DNA of 64,000 nt. Source: Lysobacterales bacterium. Its GTDB lineage: Bacteria; Pseudomonadota; Gammaproteobacteria; Xanthomonadales; SZUA-38. The translations under genes were made by a program, and so were the position numbers. Shown piece after piece: positions 30,879-59,541 of this stretch. Within the stretch, counting starts at the first letter, position 1. Every line of letters begins with the position of its first letter. The notes beneath the pieces were generated by a model. The model had not been told where the DNA came from and did no database searches. It worked only from the letters and a program-made list of their open reading frames with translations. The DNA lies in the NCBI GenBank assembly GCA_028285525.1, contig JANQOZ010000027.1, positions 186,001 through 250,000 of the forward strand. Direction: 5' to 3'.

Positions 30879-30990
30879 CCGCATAGCCCTTGATTCCGGC
30901 CGCTAGGTGTCCTGTGTGAACCCGGTCACTTCCCAGACCGTCGGTTTTTGCTAGCGTTTTGCGGTTCCGATAACTGCTCAACGTTTAGCC

Positions 30991-33594
30991 ATGCTTAAGC
31001 CTTCCCTTGCGGCTCTCCTGACGGTGCTCATATCACAGCCGGCGCTGGCACAGCCCGGCTCTTCCGGCGCCGCCCACCCGAAAGAGCACTGGGAGGTGCA
31101 CGCTCACGGGATCATGGCCAGCAAAGGCAGTCCGGACGTTTCCGCGGTCGCCAGCGGCTCGTGGTTCAACCCCGCCACGTGGTCCGGCGGGCTGCCTCAG
31201 GCCGGACAATCCGTGCTGATTCCGGCGGGCGTCACGGTGACCTACGACGGGGTCAGTGACGCCGCCCTGGACCAGGTGACGGTAGAGGGGGCGCTGACGT
31301 TCTCGACCTCGGTAAACTCCCGGCTGGTCCTCGACACGCTGACCGTCGACCCGGCGGGTCTGCTCACGATCGGCACGCTCGGCGACCCGGTTGCCCCGGA
31401 GGTGCAGGTTGAAATCCTGATCGCTGACAACGGCGATCTGGACCCGCAGAGCGACCCGGCACTGATGGGACGCGGCCTGGTTGCCAGCGGCGAGGTGCAG
31501 ATTCACGGGGCTTCAAAGACCGTGCACGCCAAGGTGGCAACCGACCCGACTGCGGGCGCTACGGTGCTCCAGATGCAGGCGCCTCCCGTCAACTGGCGCG
31601 TAGGCGATACGCTGGTGGTTGCCGGCACTCGGTACTCAGGCTGGCGCTGGGACAACGAAATCCGCCAGGTCCGCTACTTCGGCACGCAGGACGAGGTTGT
31701 GACGATCACGGCCGTTAACGGTGCGGAGATCGGCATTTCGCCTGCGCTGACGTACGACCATCGTTCCCCGCGTCCGGACCTCAAGACCTCGATCGCCAAC
31801 TTCAGCCGCAACGTGACGATCGCCACCCAGAATCCGCAGACCGCACGCCAGCGCCGCGGGCACGTGATGTTTGTCCACAACGACAACATCGACATCCGCT
31901 ACGCCGGCTTCTGGCATCTCGGCCGAACGAGCAAGGAGCTTCCCAGCCTGGAAGCGGCCGACTTCACCACGGTTGAGCCCGACAGCAACGTCCGCGGCAG
32001 GTACTCCTTTCATATCCACCGCGCCGGAATCGCGGACCCTCGCAACCCGGCGATTGTGATCGGCAACGCGGTGTTCGGCTCGCCCGGCTGGGGGTATGTG
32101 CACCACGACAGCAACGCGATCTTTCACAACAACGCGTCGTTCGACACGTTCGGTGCCGGCTTTGTCGCCGAGACCGGCAACGAGATCGGCAGCTGGACCC
32201 ACAACATCGCCATCAAAGCCGAGGGCAACAGCGCCTTTAACCCGAAAAACGGCAACGACGTCGATTTGTTCGACATGGCCCGGACCGGAGACGGCTTCTG
32301 GTTTCAGGGCCGGATGGTCAAGAGTGTCGGAAACATCGCCGCTAGCGTGAACCACGGCTTCGTCTACCTGCACCGGGGCAACGGCATGATCGGCTTCGAC
32401 AACCAGGCCTTCACCCTGCCCGAAGCGCTCCGCCGCAATGGCCAGGCCTCGCCGGACGACGCGCCGATTCTGGGTTTTCACGATAACGAGAGCTTCGCCA
32501 GCACGGTCGGGCTGTACGTTGTGAAAGCCAACCCGAACCAGCAGCACGACATCCACTCCCACCTGAGCCGCTTTCTGGCCTGGGAGGTTCGGGCCGGCGC
32601 CGCGCTGGAATACACCTCCCACTATCTGCTGGAGGACTTTGACCTCGTCGGCAAAACCCCGGAACCGTTCAGCACCGCGGACTTTGGCATCGACTTTGGC
32701 AACAACACCTCAGACATGGTGGTCAATCGTGCTCAGATCCGCGGCTTTGAAACCGGCATCGGACTCGGCAAGGGCTTCACCGATGAGTCCACACCGGCGA
32801 GTGCCAATCAGTACGTCACGATCGACATCACGATGACGGACGTACGGAACGCCTACCAGGACTACGATCCGGCCATCGACCAGCTGCTCACCTCGGGTGA
32901 CCTTGTGCCCGGACGCTTCGACATCAGCCTGGACAACGAGCCGCTGGAGTACCTGTCGCCGGCCACCAGTGCAGGCTCGGGCGTGACCTACACGGGCAGC
33001 AAGCTCGACAGCATCGGCGTCTCACCCATTCCTGCCGGCACGGACAACCTGGGGACACCCTCTTTCGACATGATCACCATCTGCGCGGAGGACGGCTATC
33101 TGCGAACCGCCGGCGGTGACGCCTACGCCATCGAAGAAGAGTATTTCACCGATCGGGCTACCGGCGAGGTGCACAAGCGAGGGCTCAAGACCCGCCTGGG
33201 TCCCGCGGTTGACGACCTGCTGGGGAACCCCTTTCACGCCTGGCGGGACGCGTTTCAGGCCGGGACCATCGATCTTGCGAGCCAGCCGCCGACGCCTACG
33301 GACGATTCGGCGTTCACCGATGGGGACACTCCAGTGGTGATCAACGTGGTCAGCAACGACTCAGACCCGGAAACTGACCCGGTCTCGGTGGACGGGCTGC
33401 TGCAGCCGCTGCACGGGCTGGCGTTCGACAACGGTGACGGCACGATTCTCTACTGGCCGGACTTCGACTACGTCGGCGTAGATCGCTTCAAGTACTGGGC
33501 GACCGACGGCCAGGGGAATTTCAGTCCAGCCTTTGTCACCGTCACCGTAGGCCCCGTTAGGCCCGAACTCCTGTTCCGCAGCGGCTTCGAGTAA
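30991..33594 (+). CDS. Secreted G8-domain / parallel beta-helix protein with Ig-like C-terminus and GFE tail
   Basis: 867 residues. A signal peptide ends near residue 21 (QPALAQ). The G8 domain (about 50-170) contains WSGGLPQAGQSVLIPAGVTV and further conserved glycines. A right-handed beta-helix region follows (about 200-700, with VHHDSNAIFHNNASFDTFG). A cadherin/Ig-like module sits near 770-855 (VVINVVSNDSDPE...VDRFKYWATDGQGN), and the tail is LLFRSGFE. G8 plus beta-helix is the organisation of CEMIP/TMEM2-type proteins, which act on hyaluronan in animals; bacterial relatives are uncharacterised. A polysaccharide-binding or depolymerising surface protein is likely. The tail recurs on two other secreted proteins here. 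Confidence 0.85.
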   Translation: MLKPSLAALLTVLISQPALAQPGSSGAAHPKEHWEVHAHGIMASKGSPDVSAVASGSWFNPATWSGGLPQAGQSVLIPAGVTVTYDGVSDAALDQVTVEGALTFSTSVNSRLVLDTLTVDPAGLLTIGTLGDPVAPEVQVEILIADNGDLDPQSDPALMGRGLVASGEVQIHGASKTVHAKVATDPTAGATVLQMQAPPVNWRVGDTLVVAGTRYSGWRWDNEIRQVRYFGTQDEVVTITAVNGAEIGISPALTYDHRSPRPDLKTSIANFSRNVTIATQNPQTARQRRGHVMFVHNDNIDIRYAGFWHLGRTSKELPSLEAADFTTVEPDSNVRGRYSFHIHRAGIADPRNPAIVIGNAVFGSPGWGYVHHDSNAIFHNNASFDTFGAGFVAETGNEIGSWTHNIAIKAEGNSAFNPKNGNDVDLFDMARTGDGFWFQGRMVKSVGNIAASVNHGFVYLHRGNGMIGFDNQAFTLPEALRRNGQASPDDAPILGFHDNESFASTVGLYVVKANPNQQHDIHSHLSRFLAWEVRAGAALEYTSHYLLEDFDLVGKTPEPFSTADFGIDFGNNTSDMVVNRAQIRGFETGIGLGKGFTDESTPASANQYVTIDITMTDVRNAYQDYDPAIDQLLTSGDLVPGRFDISLDNEPLEYLSPATSAGSGVTYTGSKLDSIGVSPIPAGTDNLGTPSFDMITICAEDGYLRTAGGDAYAIEEEYFTDRATGEVHKRGLKTRLGPAVDDLLGNPFHAWRDAFQAGTIDLASQPPTPTDDSAFTDGDTPVVINVVSNDSDPETDPVSVDGLLQPLHGLAFDNGDGTILYWPDFDYVGVDRFKYWATDGQGNFSPAFVTVTVGPVRPELLFRSGFE

Positions 33595-52369: not shown

Positions 52370-53170
52370 ATGACAACACCGATTTTCATCCTCTCGTGCG
52401 CCCGATCGGGTTCAACCCTGCTTCGCCTGGCGATGGACACTCATCCGGAGGTCTGGTCGCCGCCGGAGCTGCATCTGCTCAGCCTCTGCCAGCGATGGCT
52501 GTGGACCGTTGGGGTGCTGGAGGATCGCGAGTCGGCTGGCGAGGAGTTTTGGGATCAGGCAACCCGGAAGGTGCGCGCTGATGCCGACGCGCTGCTTCAT
52601 CCGTATCTCGAACGGGCCGGTAAGACACGCTGGTGCGAAAAATCGGTGACGTCGGTCAACCATCTCGACGTGCTTGAAGGCGTATTCCCGGATGCTCAAA
52701 GGATCTGCCTGTTTCGGCACGTGGCGGACCTGGTCCACTCAGGCCTGCGGGCCACCGAAGATCGCGCAGACGGCTTCGACTTTGAGCCCTACTTCAATGC
52801 CTGGCCCCACAGCCGGCTGGAAGCCCTGACGCGCTATTGGCTGGAGAAGACCCAGGTCTTGCTGACGGAAAAAGCGTCCGCAAACTCGCTCGCCGTTCGC
52901 TATGAAGACCTCGCGCAAAATCCCGTGCAGTCTTTGCAGGCGATTGCTGACGCGTGCGACCTGACGCCCTATCCGGAATGGCACCACGCCGTCTTCCGAT
53001 CGGACCATCAACAGGGCCCGGGAGATGCCAGCGCCTATGAGCGCAAAACCTTTGAAACCGCATCGGTCGGGATTGGCCGCGAGCTGGATTTCACCACGTT
53101 GCCCACCCGCCTGCTGCGCCAGGCCAACGAACTGCTGGCCGAACTCGACTATCCGCCGATTGCGCGGTAG
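52370..53170 (+). CDS. PAPS-dependent sulfotransferase
   Basis: 266 residues. The 5'-phosphosulfate loop IFILSCARSGSTLLRLAMD is at the N-terminus. The 3'-phosphate region is FPDAQRICLFRHVADLVHSG near 103. NSLAVRYEDLAQNPVQSLQA near 175 is typical of the Sulfotransfer_1/3 families. It transfers sulfate from PAPS to a hydroxyl or amine of a small molecule or glycan. No PAPS synthesis genes are nearby. Divergent from creD. Confidence 0.9.
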   Translation: MTTPIFILSCARSGSTLLRLAMDTHPEVWSPPELHLLSLCQRWLWTVGVLEDRESAGEEFWDQATRKVRADADALLHPYLERAGKTRWCEKSVTSVNHLDVLEGVFPDAQRICLFRHVADLVHSGLRATEDRADGFDFEPYFNAWPHSRLEALTRYWLEKTQVLLTEKASANSLAVRYEDLAQNPVQSLQAIADACDLTPYPEWHHAVFRSDHQQGPGDASAYERKTFETASVGIGRELDFTTLPTRLLRQANELLAELDYPPIAR

Positions 53171-53235: not shown

Positions 53236-53976
53236 TCAGTCTTCGAAGCCGTCGGCGAAGATGGGATCGATTGGGGCTACCACCGTGATTGTTGCGTCGG
53301 CCGATTCCTGGAGAAAGCCGTCGGAAACCGTCAGGGTGAGCGTGAGCACGCCCGTAGCGGTTTGAACCTGCCCCGCAACCGTACAGGCCAGCGTGCCGCT
53401 GCCAGCTGTGCAGGTCTGGCCAAGCTGAGCGGGCAGCCCTGCGCTCGCCGCACCATCGTCGAGGCGAAAGCTGAAGGTCGGCTGCAGCGATAGCTGCTCC
53501 ATGTCCACGGCGCTGAACTCAACATTCTGAATCGCGGCACCGGCAACCACCTGCTGGCCATCACCGGCGTCCAGACTGACCATCGGCGGCTGATTTGTCG
53601 GGTCGTTGGGGCATATGCAGGCAGCCGCACCGCGAACCGGCAGCGTCAGCCGCCACGCATCTGCCGGCATGGCGCGACTCGCGGCCAGCGCCGCGGATCG
53701 TTCGCAGCGGCCAGATGCGGCAAACAACGTGAGCCGCTCTCCAGGGCTTCTGGCCACGCCAAAGCAGCGCTGCCTGACCCACTGCGGCGTGACCACGGAC
53801 CCGTCAGGCAGGATGAACGGCTCAGTCCAGAGTGGGTCGCTCAGGCGATCAGCACTGAACTCGAGCTGTGGCTCGCTGACTGTCGCCTGTTGCCGAATTT
53901 CCAGCTCGACCGAGACGGCGGTAGCCGGTGCAATCGCGACAATAGCGAACAGCGTGGATGTGATGCGCGATGCCAA
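53236..53976 (-). CDS. Secreted Ig/cadherin-like protein with GFED tail
   Basis: 246 residues from a TTG at 53976. The signal peptide ends around AIAPATAVS. The N-terminal half has a short Cys-containing segment (CICPNDPTNQ). The C-terminal half is an Ig/cadherin-like strand pattern (TCTAGSGTLACTVAGQ, VLTLTLTVSDGFLQESADAT), ending with IDPIFADGFED. This tail matches the GFE ends of the proteins at 30991 and 54589. It follows the Hcp-like gene by eight bp on the same strand, so they are co-transcribed. Surface or matrix protein of unknown role. Confidence 0.78.
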   Translation of the reverse strand: MASRITSTLFAIVAIAPATAVSVELEIRQQATVSEPQLEFSADRLSDPLWTEPFILPDGSVVTPQWVRQRCFGVARSPGERLTLFAASGRCERSAALAASRAMPADAWRLTLPVRGAAACICPNDPTNQPPMVSLDAGDGQQVVAGAAIQNVEFSAVDMEQLSLQPTFSFRLDDGAASAGLPAQLGQTCTAGSGTLACTVAGQVQTATGVLTLTLTVSDGFLQESADATITVVAPIDPIFADGFED

Positions 53977-53984
53977 AACCGAGG

Positions 53985-54515
53985 TCAGGGAATGACCGAA
54001 AGCCCCACCCGATCCCAGCCGAAGCTGAAGGTGTCAACCACTTGGCAGGCCGGATCGTAGACGGTCTGGGTGTAGCGAACGGCGGTAAAGCTCAAGCCAA
54101 CCGTTTCCGTCGGCAGGGTCGTCTCGGTGGCACCGGCCGAGTAGCCGGTGACGGCGGCGTTGGTTAGATCGATCCGCTGATATTCGAGGATCTGGCTACC
54201 GCAGCCCGTGGAGACAAACCGGAGCGACCAGTCTCTCGGAGTGCCGTTGATCGCGGCGGCCCGGAGCGCGTTGCTGGAAATATCAAACGTGCGCGTCAGG
54301 CTGATATCGGCAAACTCCGGATTGCCCTGCTGGGCGCCGCTGCCGCTGACGGTGGCGCCGCGATCGACGCCCTCCTGAAAGTGAGAAACGACGGTGCAGC
54401 CCTGGTAGCCGGTGAGCGTCGCACCACCAGGAATGTCGCCGCCGGTGCATAAGAGGATTTCGGCCCCCGTCACGCCCGACCAGCACCCCAGGACCAGCAC
54501 AATAATCGCCCTCAT
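53985..54515 (-). CDS. Exported Hcp-like protein
   Basis: 176 residues; GGGAGG six bases before ATG 54515 fixes the start. Short signal peptide (to about residue 18). The mature part resembles Hcp (type VI secretion tube) proteins: RTFDISSNALRAAAINGTPR, YQRIDLTNAAVTGYSAGA and PTETVGLSFTAVRYTQ align with the Hcp helix and the L-T-N-x-V-x-S-Y / P-T-E-x-x-x-L-x-F strands. Four Cys (near 23, 40, 104 and 158) suit a disulfide-bonded periplasmic protein. No other T6SS gene is present, and true Hcp lacks a Sec signal, so this is probably a secreted or periplasmic ring-forming relative. Confidence 0.75.
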   Translation of the reverse strand: MRAIIVLVLGCWSGVTGAEILLCTGGDIPGGATLTGYQGCTVVSHFQEGVDRGATVSGSGAQQGNPEFADISLTRTFDISSNALRAAAINGTPRDWSLRFVSTGCGSQILEYQRIDLTNAAVTGYSAGATETTLPTETVGLSFTAVRYTQTVYDPACQVVDTFSFGWDRVGLSVIP

Positions 54516-54588: not shown

Positions 54589-55317
54589 TTACTCAAATCC
54601 GTTGGAGAACACGGTGTCCAGATCGATGCGCGCGGACTCCGGTATATCGAGGCTGCGCGGATTGCCGCTGAAGGTGTCGCTGTGCATCACAAGACGATCG
54701 ATGACGTGACTGGAAGAGCGGGCCGAGAGACGGATCGTGTAAACCCCGGCCGAATCGAAGCGTGCAAAGATATCGTGGGCGTCGTTGTCGCTGGTTCGCG
54801 TGCTGAAGCGCCAGTCGTTGGCACCGCTTGAGTACACCTTGAACCAGCCGTCCGAGCCTGAGCCCTCGGGCTGGCCCCCAACACAGTCGTTTTCGGAAGG
54901 GATTCTGCCCTTGGGACAAACTACGCTACCGCCGCGCTGGCCGAAGTAGCTGTCGGCATCAATTTTGAGCCAGGTGTCGTTGTGCTCGGTCGTGTTGGTG
55001 CCGCGACCCACCTGGTTACGCCACTCAAAGCGGTAGGTGCCCGGGTTGTTGATCATGACAAAAAAGACGATCTCGCCGTTGCCCGGGGCGTTCAGATACT
55101 GGCGATCCTCCCAGACGATAAATCCCCGGCCGGTCGCGCCACCGGGCTCGTTGATATTGGGCGACGTCGGGTTTTCGGCCGGCCCCAGCACCCAGTTTTC
55201 TGGCAGGGGAGCCGCACTTTCCAGCTCGATCACCAGCAGGCCGCCCTGCTCCTCGAACACCGTCTGAGCCGTCGCGCTGACGCTCAAGAGCAGCAGCAAG
55301 AGAAAGGATTTTTTCAT
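54589..55317 (-). CDS. Secreted protein with GFE tail, carbohydrate-binding-like
   Basis: 242 residues from ATG 55317 (TTG 55338 is possible). The signal peptide ends in SATAQ. Beta-rich mature part: LLVIELESAAPLPENWVLGP at the start, GTYRFEWRNQVGRGTNTTEH, HNDTWLKIDADSYFG, and AGVYTIRLSARSSSHVIDRL, a pattern seen in carbohydrate-binding jelly-roll modules. Ends with DLDTVFSNGFE. Same strand as the Hcp-like and GFED genes. No catalytic residues recognised. Confidence 0.78.
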   Translation of the reverse strand: MKKSFLLLLLLSVSATAQTVFEEQGGLLVIELESAAPLPENWVLGPAENPTSPNINEPGGATGRGFIVWEDRQYLNAPGNGEIVFFVMINNPGTYRFEWRNQVGRGTNTTEHNDTWLKIDADSYFGQRGGSVVCPKGRIPSENDCVGGQPEGSGSDGWFKVYSSGANDWRFSTRTSDNDAHDIFARFDSAGVYTIRLSARSSSHVIDRLVMHSDTFSGNPRSLDIPESARIDLDTVFSNGFE

Positions 55318-56386: not shown

Positions 56387-58291
56387 TCAGGCGGTTTTCG
56401 GTGCGGTGCGTTCAGATCTCAGCGCATCCGCGATGATCGACACGACACGTCCGTCGAGCAGGTACGTGAGGTGTCCACCGGTACCCATCGCATGTTCTTG
56501 AAACTCAAAGGGCGGCTGCGGACCTGCGTTGACATGGGTGCCGACAAAATCGTCGTTGCGATAGATGTTGATCCAGCGGTTCAGGCGCCGGCCGAGGCGT
56601 TGCCAGACGGGCTGGTCCAGCGCTGGATACGACAGCGGAAAGAAATGCTGGTAGAGATGGCTGAACGGTGAACCCATGGTGATCAGCGTGACGTCGAGCT
56701 GCTCCAGCCAATCGGGCGGCCGGCCAAAGCTGCTGCGGGCCAGCTCATCGACCGCCAGCACCGTACCCTGGCTGTGGGACACAACGACAATTCGCTCCAG
56801 GGGATGATGTCGATTCAGCAGGCGCATCACCTCGTTGAACTTGTTGCGGATCGGCCGCAGCCGCTCACGCTCATCTTCACTCGGCTTCAGGCGCGACTTG
56901 AGCGGCATGGCGAGGCGGACGTAGTTGACGACGTCATTGCCGATGTCCAGCGCCAGCACCACGCCGCCGACGAAGACCGACGAGGCCACCAGGAGCGGAA
57001 TGGCGGGCAGTATCGCCACCTCCAGGCGCCGGAGCTGCTGGACAATTTCGGGGAGCACCACCGCCTGCTCCTGGTCCATCACGGAAACCACCACGCTGGC
57101 GATGACGGTCAGCACAACCGACACGAGCAGCGCGTCGCGGATCAGCGCATGCACGATCAGCCTGGGCGGATTCGTGGCGCGCTTCTGCCAGCGCCACAGC
57201 AGCACGATAACCAGGGCCAGCAGGGGGAGCGGCAGATAAAACCACTGCAGCCCGTCGGAGGCGACGACCTCGTGAAAACGATCCAGCCAAAATGCAAAGC
57301 TTTTGCTGTCGCTCGTGACCAGCGACAGCGTCAGCAGCCAGATCGAGGGCACGATCGTGCTCCACAGGACAAACTGAATGGCCAACGCCATCGCCCTGGC
57401 GCTGAGCGAATGGCGCTCAGCGTCGCTGAAGGCCGGCCGCACGATACGGCTCAACAGGTATAGATTAACGACCAGCAATACGGCCAGGGCCACGAAACCA
57501 AAAGCATGCCAGAGCAGCGTGAACGGGATCGCGGCGAACGTCTGAAGGTCATCAGCACCGCTCAACGCTGCGGCTACCGGCCAGATACCGCCCATCGCGA
57601 GCAGGGAAAAGGCGTAAACACCCAGCGTCCCCTGGGGCGCCACAACCCGGGTAGCACGGGCTTTGACCCAGCGCCAGACCAGCAAAAGCCCCAGCAGCGC
57701 ACTGGCGATGCTCGCTATCACGACACCAAGCAGTATCTCTCGGGACGTCGCCTCGGTGAGTGACACCACCCACTCACTTTCGGTATGACTCACACCCTGC
57801 AGGATCACAATGGCGAGCAGCGCAATCATCAGCGCCGTATTGATCGCAAAGACCGGACCCCTCAGCAGGCGACTGCCGATCAATCCGACCCAGGCGACAA
57901 ACCATTCGTATCGACCGATCCCTTCTGGCCGGGCCTCGATGAGTCCGGACATGCCGAAAATCAGCTGAAACAGCCCCTGCAGCAACCCGAGCACGCTGTG
58001 AGGAATGGCGCTCTCCGAGCCCCAGAACACCTCAGCCATGACCACCTTTTCACCGTCGTGCTCGGCCATCTGCCATGGCACCGGCGAAAAGGAATAGAGG
58101 TCGTTTTCCGACCGCCGCTGATCAGCCGCCTGCCAGGTCTGACGTGGACCGTCGAGCCGAAACTCATCACACGTGTTGGCCAACGTTGCGGTCAGACGAT
58201 CCAGCGTTGCGCCGGGGTCGGGATTGCCGACCCCATGCACGACCACAACCGCCGTGCTGGCACCCTGCCGGGAACTGACCGCCTTGAACAT
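56387..58291 (-). CDS. Membrane-embedded alpha/beta hydrolase
   Basis: 634 residues. The N-terminus has TAVVVVHGVGNPDPGATLDR (oxyanion HG). At least six membrane segments lie between about 115 and 465. The C-terminal part resumes the hydrolase fold with the nucleophile elbow RIVVVSHSQGTVLAVDELAR (S-H-S-Q-G near 505) and a late EHAMGTGGHLTYLLDG His block. Thus a hydrolase domain is split by a membrane domain, an unusual layout. Lipase or lipid-acyl hydrolase activity at the inner membrane is plausible. It follows the 58296 gene with a 4-bp gap and precedes the EEP gene by 17 bp. Confidence 0.82.
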   Translation of the reverse strand: MFKAVSSRQGASTAVVVVHGVGNPDPGATLDRLTATLANTCDEFRLDGPRQTWQAADQRRSENDLYSFSPVPWQMAEHDGEKVVMAEVFWGSESAIPHSVLGLLQGLFQLIFGMSGLIEARPEGIGRYEWFVAWVGLIGSRLLRGPVFAINTALMIALLAIVILQGVSHTESEWVVSLTEATSREILLGVVIASIASALLGLLLVWRWVKARATRVVAPQGTLGVYAFSLLAMGGIWPVAAALSGADDLQTFAAIPFTLLWHAFGFVALAVLLVVNLYLLSRIVRPAFSDAERHSLSARAMALAIQFVLWSTIVPSIWLLTLSLVTSDSKSFAFWLDRFHEVVASDGLQWFYLPLPLLALVIVLLWRWQKRATNPPRLIVHALIRDALLVSVVLTVIASVVVSVMDQEQAVVLPEIVQQLRRLEVAILPAIPLLVASSVFVGGVVLALDIGNDVVNYVRLAMPLKSRLKPSEDERERLRPIRNKFNEVMRLLNRHHPLERIVVVSHSQGTVLAVDELARSSFGRPPDWLEQLDVTLITMGSPFSHLYQHFFPLSYPALDQPVWQRLGRRLNRWINIYRNDDFVGTHVNAGPQPPFEFQEHAMGTGGHLTYLLDGRVVSIIADALRSERTAPKTA

Positions 58292-58295
58292 GGCC

Positions 58296-59387
58296 CTACG
58301 CCACGCGATAAACGTTCTTTATCGAGTCGTAGGGCAACTCGTTTTCAGCGAAGCGCCCGTTGAAGGCGTCCTCGAAAAACGACCGCACGTTTGCGTTGTC
58401 TTTGGTCGGGTCGTCTTTGAAATAAGTATGCGCGTTGCCCACGCTGGCGGCGTTGGTGAAGTCCACATAGGTGGCCCGGCGCGCGGTCAGGTTGTACGTG
58501 ACGTGGCCGAGACGCGCGAGCTGTTCTTCGCCCGCCTTCATGCGTGAAGCGTTCAGCGCATAATCGTTTTCGTTGATGCAGACGTACACGCGCCGGCGGC
58601 ACTGGATGCGGTCGAGCCACCAGGCATGGTCGAGATTGTTGACGTCCGGCGCCGCCATGATCACGTTGTCGAACAGCGGCCGGGTGGCTTCGGTGGCAGT
58701 CGACTTCAGCAGGTTTTTGTACAGATAGTTGCCCATGCTGTGCGCGAGCAGATTGACGGTGAACGGGCACTCGGCGTCGAGCAGCCTGGCGTAAAGCTGA
58801 TCCGCCTGCTCCCGATTGTCCGGGTGTTTTTTGTTGGCCTCGCGCAGCAGCCGGTCGCGCTGCGCCTCGGTGATCATCTTCAGGTACTCCATCGCCTTCA
58901 TGAACAGCCGATCCAGCGCACCGCTGGACGCGCGCGCGTCGCGCTTGTCTTCGCGATAGCTGAGCGTGCCCGATACGGGCCCGCCGCCGTTGGCCGGCCA
59001 GGTGAACGGCAGCACGATGAGGTTGTACAGCTCGGAAATCGCCCTCGCGGCGGTCATCACGTCTTTGACGTCGTTGTTGAAGCCGTGAACAAAAATCAGA
59101 ATATTCTTTTTCTCGGTGCGCGCCTGCTCGGCGATCTCACACGCCACCTTGAGGCTGGCGTACCAGGGCCGGTCGGCCGCCGGATCAATCGGCAGGTGAT
59201 ACTTTTTTACGAGCGCTCGAAGCTGGGTCTTGCTCAGCCGGTCGTTCAGCGCCTTGACCTCCCAGCGACGTCCCTCTTTGGCCACGTCAAAAAGCCGGAT
59301 TTCGTTTGGCCCTTCGGCGTTTGGCTTCTTGCCGAACTGGCCCAGCGCTTTGCGGTTGCTGACCTCACGGTTGGTGACAACAAACAT
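58296..59387 (-). CDS. DUF900-type alpha/beta hydrolase
   Basis: 363 residues from ATG 59387 (GGGAGG seven bases upstream; ATG 59393 is too close). DUF900 features: KKNILIFVHGFNNDVKDVMT (HGFNN), LIVLPFTWPANGG, nucleophile elbow VNLLAHSMGNYLYKNLL, and AAPDVNN followed by NENDYALNAS. No signal peptide. The family acts as esterase-like hydrolases of unclear substrate. First gene of the three-gene operon with the membrane hydrolase and EEP hydrolase, divergent from the ECF sigma/kinase pair across 154 bp. Confidence 0.88.
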   Translation of the reverse strand: MFVVTNREVSNRKALGQFGKKPNAEGPNEIRLFDVAKEGRRWEVKALNDRLSKTQLRALVKKYHLPIDPAADRPWYASLKVACEIAEQARTEKKNILIFVHGFNNDVKDVMTAARAISELYNLIVLPFTWPANGGGPVSGTLSYREDKRDARASSGALDRLFMKAMEYLKMITEAQRDRLLREANKKHPDNREQADQLYARLLDAECPFTVNLLAHSMGNYLYKNLLKSTATEATRPLFDNVIMAAPDVNNLDHAWWLDRIQCRRRVYVCINENDYALNASRMKAGEEQLARLGHVTYNLTARRATYVDFTNAASVGNAHTYFKDDPTKDNANVRSFFEDAFNGRFAENELPYDSIKNVYRVA

Positions 59388-59541
59388 AGACATTCCTCCC
59401 CGGTATAGCGGCACCATTGACCTGATCGTGGCGCCGGAACAAAAATCCTCCCACATAAAGGGAAAACGTCCCAGTGCCGGAAAATCCTCAGCGGGCTTCC
59501 CATGCCCTGTCAGTTTCTCCACAGCTTGCTACCATCAGAAC

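Follow-up and report, generated by a model that had tools for sequence, protein, structure and literature searches.

A 176-residue protein encoded within the window, by which we mean the whole 64,000-nucleotide stretch of the Lysobacterales bacterium genome analyzed here, is by its sequence a true member of the Hcp family, whose canonical members form part of the type VI secretion system (T6SS). Canonical Hcp is cytoplasmic, is loaded by the T6SS, and serves this machine both as a component and as a carrier of cargo. We found that the window protein carries a predicted Sec signal peptide, that the T6SS markers searched for had no match in its draft genome, and that an exported cysteine-rich protein is encoded immediately downstream of it. 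A recurrent exported partner encoded next to Hcp is the new observation of this analysis. This relative of the tube protein probably serves a different purpose outside the cytoplasm. In the literature searched, with most subscription journals outside that search, no description of such an exported Hcp was found. Finding Hcp commonly leads to the conclusion that a T6SS is present; genomes holding exported Hcps only would be misread.

An Hcp-family protein with a predicted signal peptide in a draft genome without TssC or TssK matches

The original prediction had called this protein Hcp-like, and the Pfam search that it proposed gave a clear answer: residues 27–149 matched positions 6–128 of the 129 in PF05638 (T6SS_HCP) with 62.5 bits (hmmscan, E = 6.4e-17), above the curated family cut-off of 23.5. 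The window Hcp alone matched an Hcp of known structure (PDB 9qpe_A; phmmer, E = 2.8e-7), and a profile built from three orthologue-like proteins (A3) matched 1y12_A, the Hcp1 of P. aeruginosa (PA0085), with E = 7.8e-18, together with many other Hcps. Both Hcp-like strand motifs that had been pointed out were located, L-T-N-A-A-V at residue 117 and P-T-E-T-V-G-L-S-F at residue 135, as were the four cysteines of the mature protein (residues 23, 40, 105 and 157); a fifth, Cys 11, lies within the signal peptide. The protein shares with canonical Hcps (PDB 1y12 and 9qpe) a nearly full-length Pfam domain and significant sequence matches, but it differs from them in having a signal peptide, in its genomic setting without T6SS genes found, in its pairing with an exported cysteine-rich protein, and in scoring far under the cut-off of the TssD/Hcp1 model of NCBIfam (TIGR03344; 18.1 bits against 58.9).

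Signal peptides were called throughout by a crude hydropathy rule, to which conservation among orthologues was added for the window Hcp. Its predicted peptide is MRAIIVLVLGCWSGVTGA, with cleavage expected before EILL, which departs from the cytoplasmic, signal-free character of TssD. The original prediction made its export claim depend on orthologues also having a signal peptide, and one is present in both G001 and G719, in the latter with a different sequence. Residue 11 is Cys in the window's genome (G000) and Phe in G001; a lipobox is therefore unlikely, and the site was read as one for signal peptidase I.

The genome of the window (6.23 Mb, 125 contigs, 98% complete) was searched for T6SS markers, and neither TssC (PF05943, even with a threshold of E ≤ 0.1) nor TssK (PF05936) was matched in this draft, so that the loading sheath and baseplate expected to accompany a TssD were not found. 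The absence of a T6SS, as originally claimed, agrees with these searches; what had been overlooked is a second Hcp gene in the same genome, whose product also carries a signal peptide by the crude rule.

Exported Hcps recur, mostly within the order

We searched 121 relatives, with the window's own genome included, and detected Hcp in 26 and TssC in 16, all 16 of which also had Hcp. Exported Hcps, one or more per genome, were encoded by every one of the 10 genomes with Hcp and without TssC (G019 also encoded an Hcp without a signal peptide). The sample at class level comprised 369 genomes, 71 with Hcp and 70 with TssC. Across 124 Hcp genes from the relatives and class searches (class matches partly read; rows without a locus, namely fragments and near-copies, excluded), a signal peptide was flagged in 14 of 29 Hcps of TssC-negative genomes, compared with 4 of 95 in TssC-positive genomes (P ~ 1e-7, relatedness ignored). 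One of these four flags (L155) was artefactual, resulting from an early start; the other three all belonged to a single genome, G435. Orphan Hcps of T6SS-positive bacteria serve a T6SS encoded elsewhere in the genome; the window gene resembles them in being located away from a T6SS cluster, but apart from the three in G435 the 95 Hcps of TssC-positive genomes lack a signal peptide. Eleven other TssC-negative genomes had only Hcps without a recognized signal peptide.

A phylum sample of 254 genomes contained Hcp in 50, and reading 12 low-scoring or long ones yielded one more exported Hcp (G654); a search of 43 genomes from a different family in the order yielded another (G719), and 33 further genomes yielded no new one. 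In total, 19 exported Hcps were found in 13 genomes, mostly of the window's order, and all eight further ones that were scanned exceeded the PF05638 cut-off. TssC was missing from 10 of the 11 exported-Hcp genomes tested (G719 and G654 not among them) and TssK from 12 of 13, with both present in G435; as a control, TssK was found in 4/4 T6SS-positive relatives.

A quick tree covering 123 Hcps contains many long branches; on it, the exported label requires 11 changes, at least three of which are forced by supported branches. Sequence comparison thus suggests that exported Hcps likely have several origins, a single origin being also possible. In the same set, four Hcp-like proteins without signal peptides (L112, L116, L119 and L120, from G210, G353, G431 and G449, genomes without a TssC match) form a supported clade, possibly another T6SS-free use of Hcp. 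The Hcp gene of G327 (L115), one of the eleven TssC-negative genomes mentioned above, is a broken copy of the window type with frame breaks and a stop, in which the cysteine spacing is kept.

The window Hcp had no relative among viral contigs, searches there with two canonical Hcp alignments gave none either, and the partner had none; PHROG 27303, a family without an assigned function, matched the window Hcp weakly (22.9 bits, E = 1.6e-4). Plasmids contained only two Azospirillum Hcps with 27–30% identity, both annotated as T6SS tube proteins. A search of genome contigs with A3 gave 118 pattern matches with no relative among them, and one with A5 gave a single locus (L228), the G116 contig JAJRYF010000052.1 (metagenome-assembled genome, Gammaproteobacteria bacterium isolate Dive96_bin3.252).

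A co-conserved exported partner downstream of Hcp

The gene following each exported Hcp was read at 18 loci, which hold the 19 exported Hcp genes (one locus being a tandem), and an exported protein was encoded directly downstream at 12 of them. A partner of the window kind was found in seven loci (the window, G001, the second G000 locus, G057, G083 C17, G116 and G719), with a tentative eighth in G083 C19, located behind leucine-rich repeats (LRRs). These partners have a cysteine-rich domain in common, and most of them end in a tail of the form [ILV]F-x-x-x-FE. The G077 and G107 loci share a different exported protein of small size (mutual E = 1e-14), and at two G435 loci, one of which was scanned, the downstream exported protein carries dockerin/thrombospondin-3 (TSP3)-like repeats. 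As a separate observation on this T6SS-positive genome (L122, L124), each locus of its three exported Hcps is followed by an exported protein with such repeats.

The window partner has a signal peptide, followed by an LPDG motif and cysteines, then by another domain containing ..TC..LAC.., and ends with IFADGFED; its cysteines number six (residues 71, 91, 120, 122, 189 and 198); no Pfam model fitted the cysteine-rich domain of the partners. In G001, the partner is 76% identical and begins 5 nt past Hcp. The window and G719 partners matched with a phmmer E-value of 8e-12 (Z = 6423 frames), and the Hcps of these two loci with 1.8e-6. Hcp and partner form the only adjacent gene pair common to the 18 kb of G719 and the 64-kb window; the remaining G719 genes differ, the one adjoining the pair encoding a TPR-methyltransferase. 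Other partner pairs, in the same 6423 frames, gave E-values of 3e-9 (G057 and G083), 9e-27 (G116 and the second G000 locus) and 1.8e-7 (G116 and G083). A leave-one-out hidden Markov model (HMM) of five other partners retrieved the window partner with E = 3.5e-5, the best unrelated frame having 7.4e-4; when the second G000 locus or G719 was left out instead, scores were within noise. By hhalign, the cysteine-rich stretch of the window partner matched an alignment of four partners (A2) with E = 2.4e-5. When A2 was used to search the 121 genomes, the only clear matches were those four partners. Weak matches in G030 and G065, with no partner-like frame found at either, were taken as noise; G114 also gave a weak match.

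The two GFE-tailed neighbours described in the original prediction are both present on the same strand as Hcp, ending in IFADGFED (downstream) and VFSNGFE (upstream). Both were taken there as context only; the downstream one is a co-conserved partner. Of 4600 frames with a length of 100 aa or more, 30 carry the strict FE-tail pattern, compared with one after shuffling; the loci overlap, so that the counts are not independent. The pattern detected eight of the ten partners belonging to the first two kinds; the exceptions are the second G000 partner, with the end FVAGLEGD, and the G077 partner, which has no tail. The loci of G009, G019, G048 and G435 contain neither an FE tail nor such a partner beside their exported Hcps. 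This distribution indicates that the tail is shared more widely among the exported proteins of these bacteria, and from its sequence it looks like a sorting or anchoring tag; no NCBIfam tail model was found for the two tailed window proteins. The tail, [ILV]F-x-[DNGS]-x-FE, also occurs at window positions 54592–54612 (minus strand) and in the frame 30955–33594 (plus strand), and in exported proteins of several genomes of the order.

Selection and cysteine content

We compared the loci of G000 and G001, in which the Hcps are 88–89% identical, and obtained a ratio of nonsynonymous to synonymous substitution rates (dN/dS) of 0.10 for Hcp and 0.17 for the partner, with seven neighbouring genes at 0.05–0.12. 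Of the 19 exported Hcps, 18 have an even number of cysteines in the mature protein (11 have none), compared with 56 of 104 cytoplasmic Hcps (P = 6e-4, relatedness ignored); with only cysteine-bearing Hcps considered, the number was even in 7/8 and 39/87, respectively (P = 0.027, relatedness ignored). Both G719 and the broken G327 copy have counterparts of Cys 23 and Cys 40 at a similar distance from each other. Even cysteine numbers are compatible with an oxidizing compartment. The gene pair, the purifying selection and the even cysteines together point to a working extracytoplasmic module and not to a relic.

Possible role of the exported pair

Family membership, the export signal and the linkage to the partner are much surer than any assembly that the two proteins may form. 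From the patterns described above, we infer the contact between Hcp and partner, ring formation, disulphides, location and a structural or binding role. A T6SS Hcp-type gene would have acquired a signal peptide and become independent of any T6SS; its product would be exported by Sec, probably oxidized outside the cytoplasm, and would keep its core while acting with the exported protein encoded directly downstream. Hcp-fold subunits, single or in an Hcp-like ring, may bind the cysteine-rich domain of the partner, whose C-terminal FE tail might place or anchor the complex at the outer surface. The reading that we tentatively favour, at somewhat below an even chance, is a periplasmic or surface assembly with a structural or binding role, in which the partner binds the Hcp subunit or ring and positions it through its tail. 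The stronger proposal of Sec-dependent, T6SS-free rings or short tubes of the Hcp fold outside the cytoplasm, capped or anchored by the tailed cysteine-rich partner and arising through several independent gains of a signal peptide, appears rather doubtful. If the pair does assemble outside the cytoplasm, it shows how a phage-tail-like tube subunit can leave its machine for a different role, on which the partner offers a direct handle.

Several results weigh against the favoured assembly. Six of the 18 loci have no partner, and the partners at the other loci are of three unrelated-looking kinds. An HMM of the four far partners gave the window partner 16.3 bits, less than an antisense frame (19.6 bits), and sequence comparison joins the window partner to the other partner subfamily only moderately. 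AlphaFold2 run on the mature window Hcp as a single chain and single sequence, without an alignment, gave a model of too low confidence to judge the fold (predicted local distance difference test, pLDDT, 40.5), with one helix among strands, and a fold search with this model gave no match at E ≤ 0.001. Moreover, since exported Hcps form no single supported clade, they possibly have no common function.

The Hcp β-barrel might instead serve as a monomeric binding or structural domain in an adhesin-like pair, with no ring formed. We consider this unlikely but a serious contender: in an alignment, the Hcps of G077, G107, G057 and G116 lack the stretch aligned to the extended loop, and partners bear other modules (LRR, dockerin/TSP3-like and, by eye, Ig-like repeats), although the window-type Hcp keeps, by eye, both the loop stretch and the C-terminal GWD end, which a monomer could dispense with. 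It also seems improbable that T6SS-free bacteria keep an exported Hcp as a decoy, held by the partner, which traps the Hcp-bound effectors or Hcp subunits of a rival's T6SS. The interior of the Hcp ring binds effectors, the Hcp domain is complete in the window-type sequence, and the lack of TssK in 12 of 13 exported-Hcp genomes would fit a decoy. However, that the 10 exported-Hcp genomes of the order all lack TssC is not significant (P = 0.23) because 105 of the 121 genomes do so anyway, and this anticorrelation was rejected as evidence. A decoy also sits poorly with G435, which has a T6SS plus three exported Hcps, with the great diversity of the sequences, and with the anti-phage defence models of PADLOC, which matched neither the window Hcp nor either neighbour.

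The gene might be left over from a T6SS that was lost, or be decaying with a start that resembles a signal peptide by chance. This would be in keeping with the broken copy of the same type in G327 and with the lack of a match in the genome for the other T6SS markers tested, but the dN/dS of 0.10, the occurrence of a signal peptide in 19 proteins and the conservation of the partner in another family make it very improbable. Hardly credible at all is an Hcp loaded by a T6SS absent from the assembly, with an N-terminus that is not a signal peptide. A 98%-complete assembly in 125 contigs leaves some room for it; however, G000 and G001 both lack TssC and TssK, the two Hcps of G000 both have signal peptides, and the Hcps of TssC-positive relatives do not.

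Other genes around the pair

Table 1. Positions in the window of the Hcp gene, its partner and the upstream neighbour
Feature	Positions	Strand	Basis
Exported Hcp-family protein, 176 aa precursor	53985..54515	minus	PF05638, phmmer, profile A3, dN/dS 0.10
Predicted Sec signal peptide, residues 1–18	54462..54515	minus	Hydropathy rule 2.8; kept in G001 and G719
Hcp (T6SS_HCP) domain	54069..54437	minus	hmmscan and genome search match G000:C1:240069-240437
Downstream partner, exported, cysteine-rich, 246 aa	53236..53976	minus	8 nt past Hcp stop; orthologues in G001 and G719
Partner N-terminal cysteine-rich stretch, about residues 35–127 (LPDG..C..C..CxC)	53596..53874	minus	Leave-one-out HMM, hhalign
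Partner C-terminal tail FADGFED	53239..53259	minus	Sequence; tail pattern count
Upstream exported protein with GFE tail, listed with 249 aa	54589..55338	minus	Ends VFSNGFE; likely start at inner Met, 55317

The upstream GFE-tailed gene lies on the same strand as the Hcp gene and is probably in its transcription unit; its product has no Pfam match and is kept in G001 with 91% identity. It was dropped as a member of the module, as phmmer found no homologue in the other fetched loci or in the 18 kb of G719. A sulphotransferase-family gene at 52370–53170 (plus strand), convergent with the partner gene, is not at this place in G001, and was likewise dropped, with no homologue in the other fetched loci outside this genome. 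Two adjoining genes at 56387–58291 and 58296–59522 (minus strand), with DUF900 α/β-hydrolase matches (the first under the cut-off), are kept in G001.
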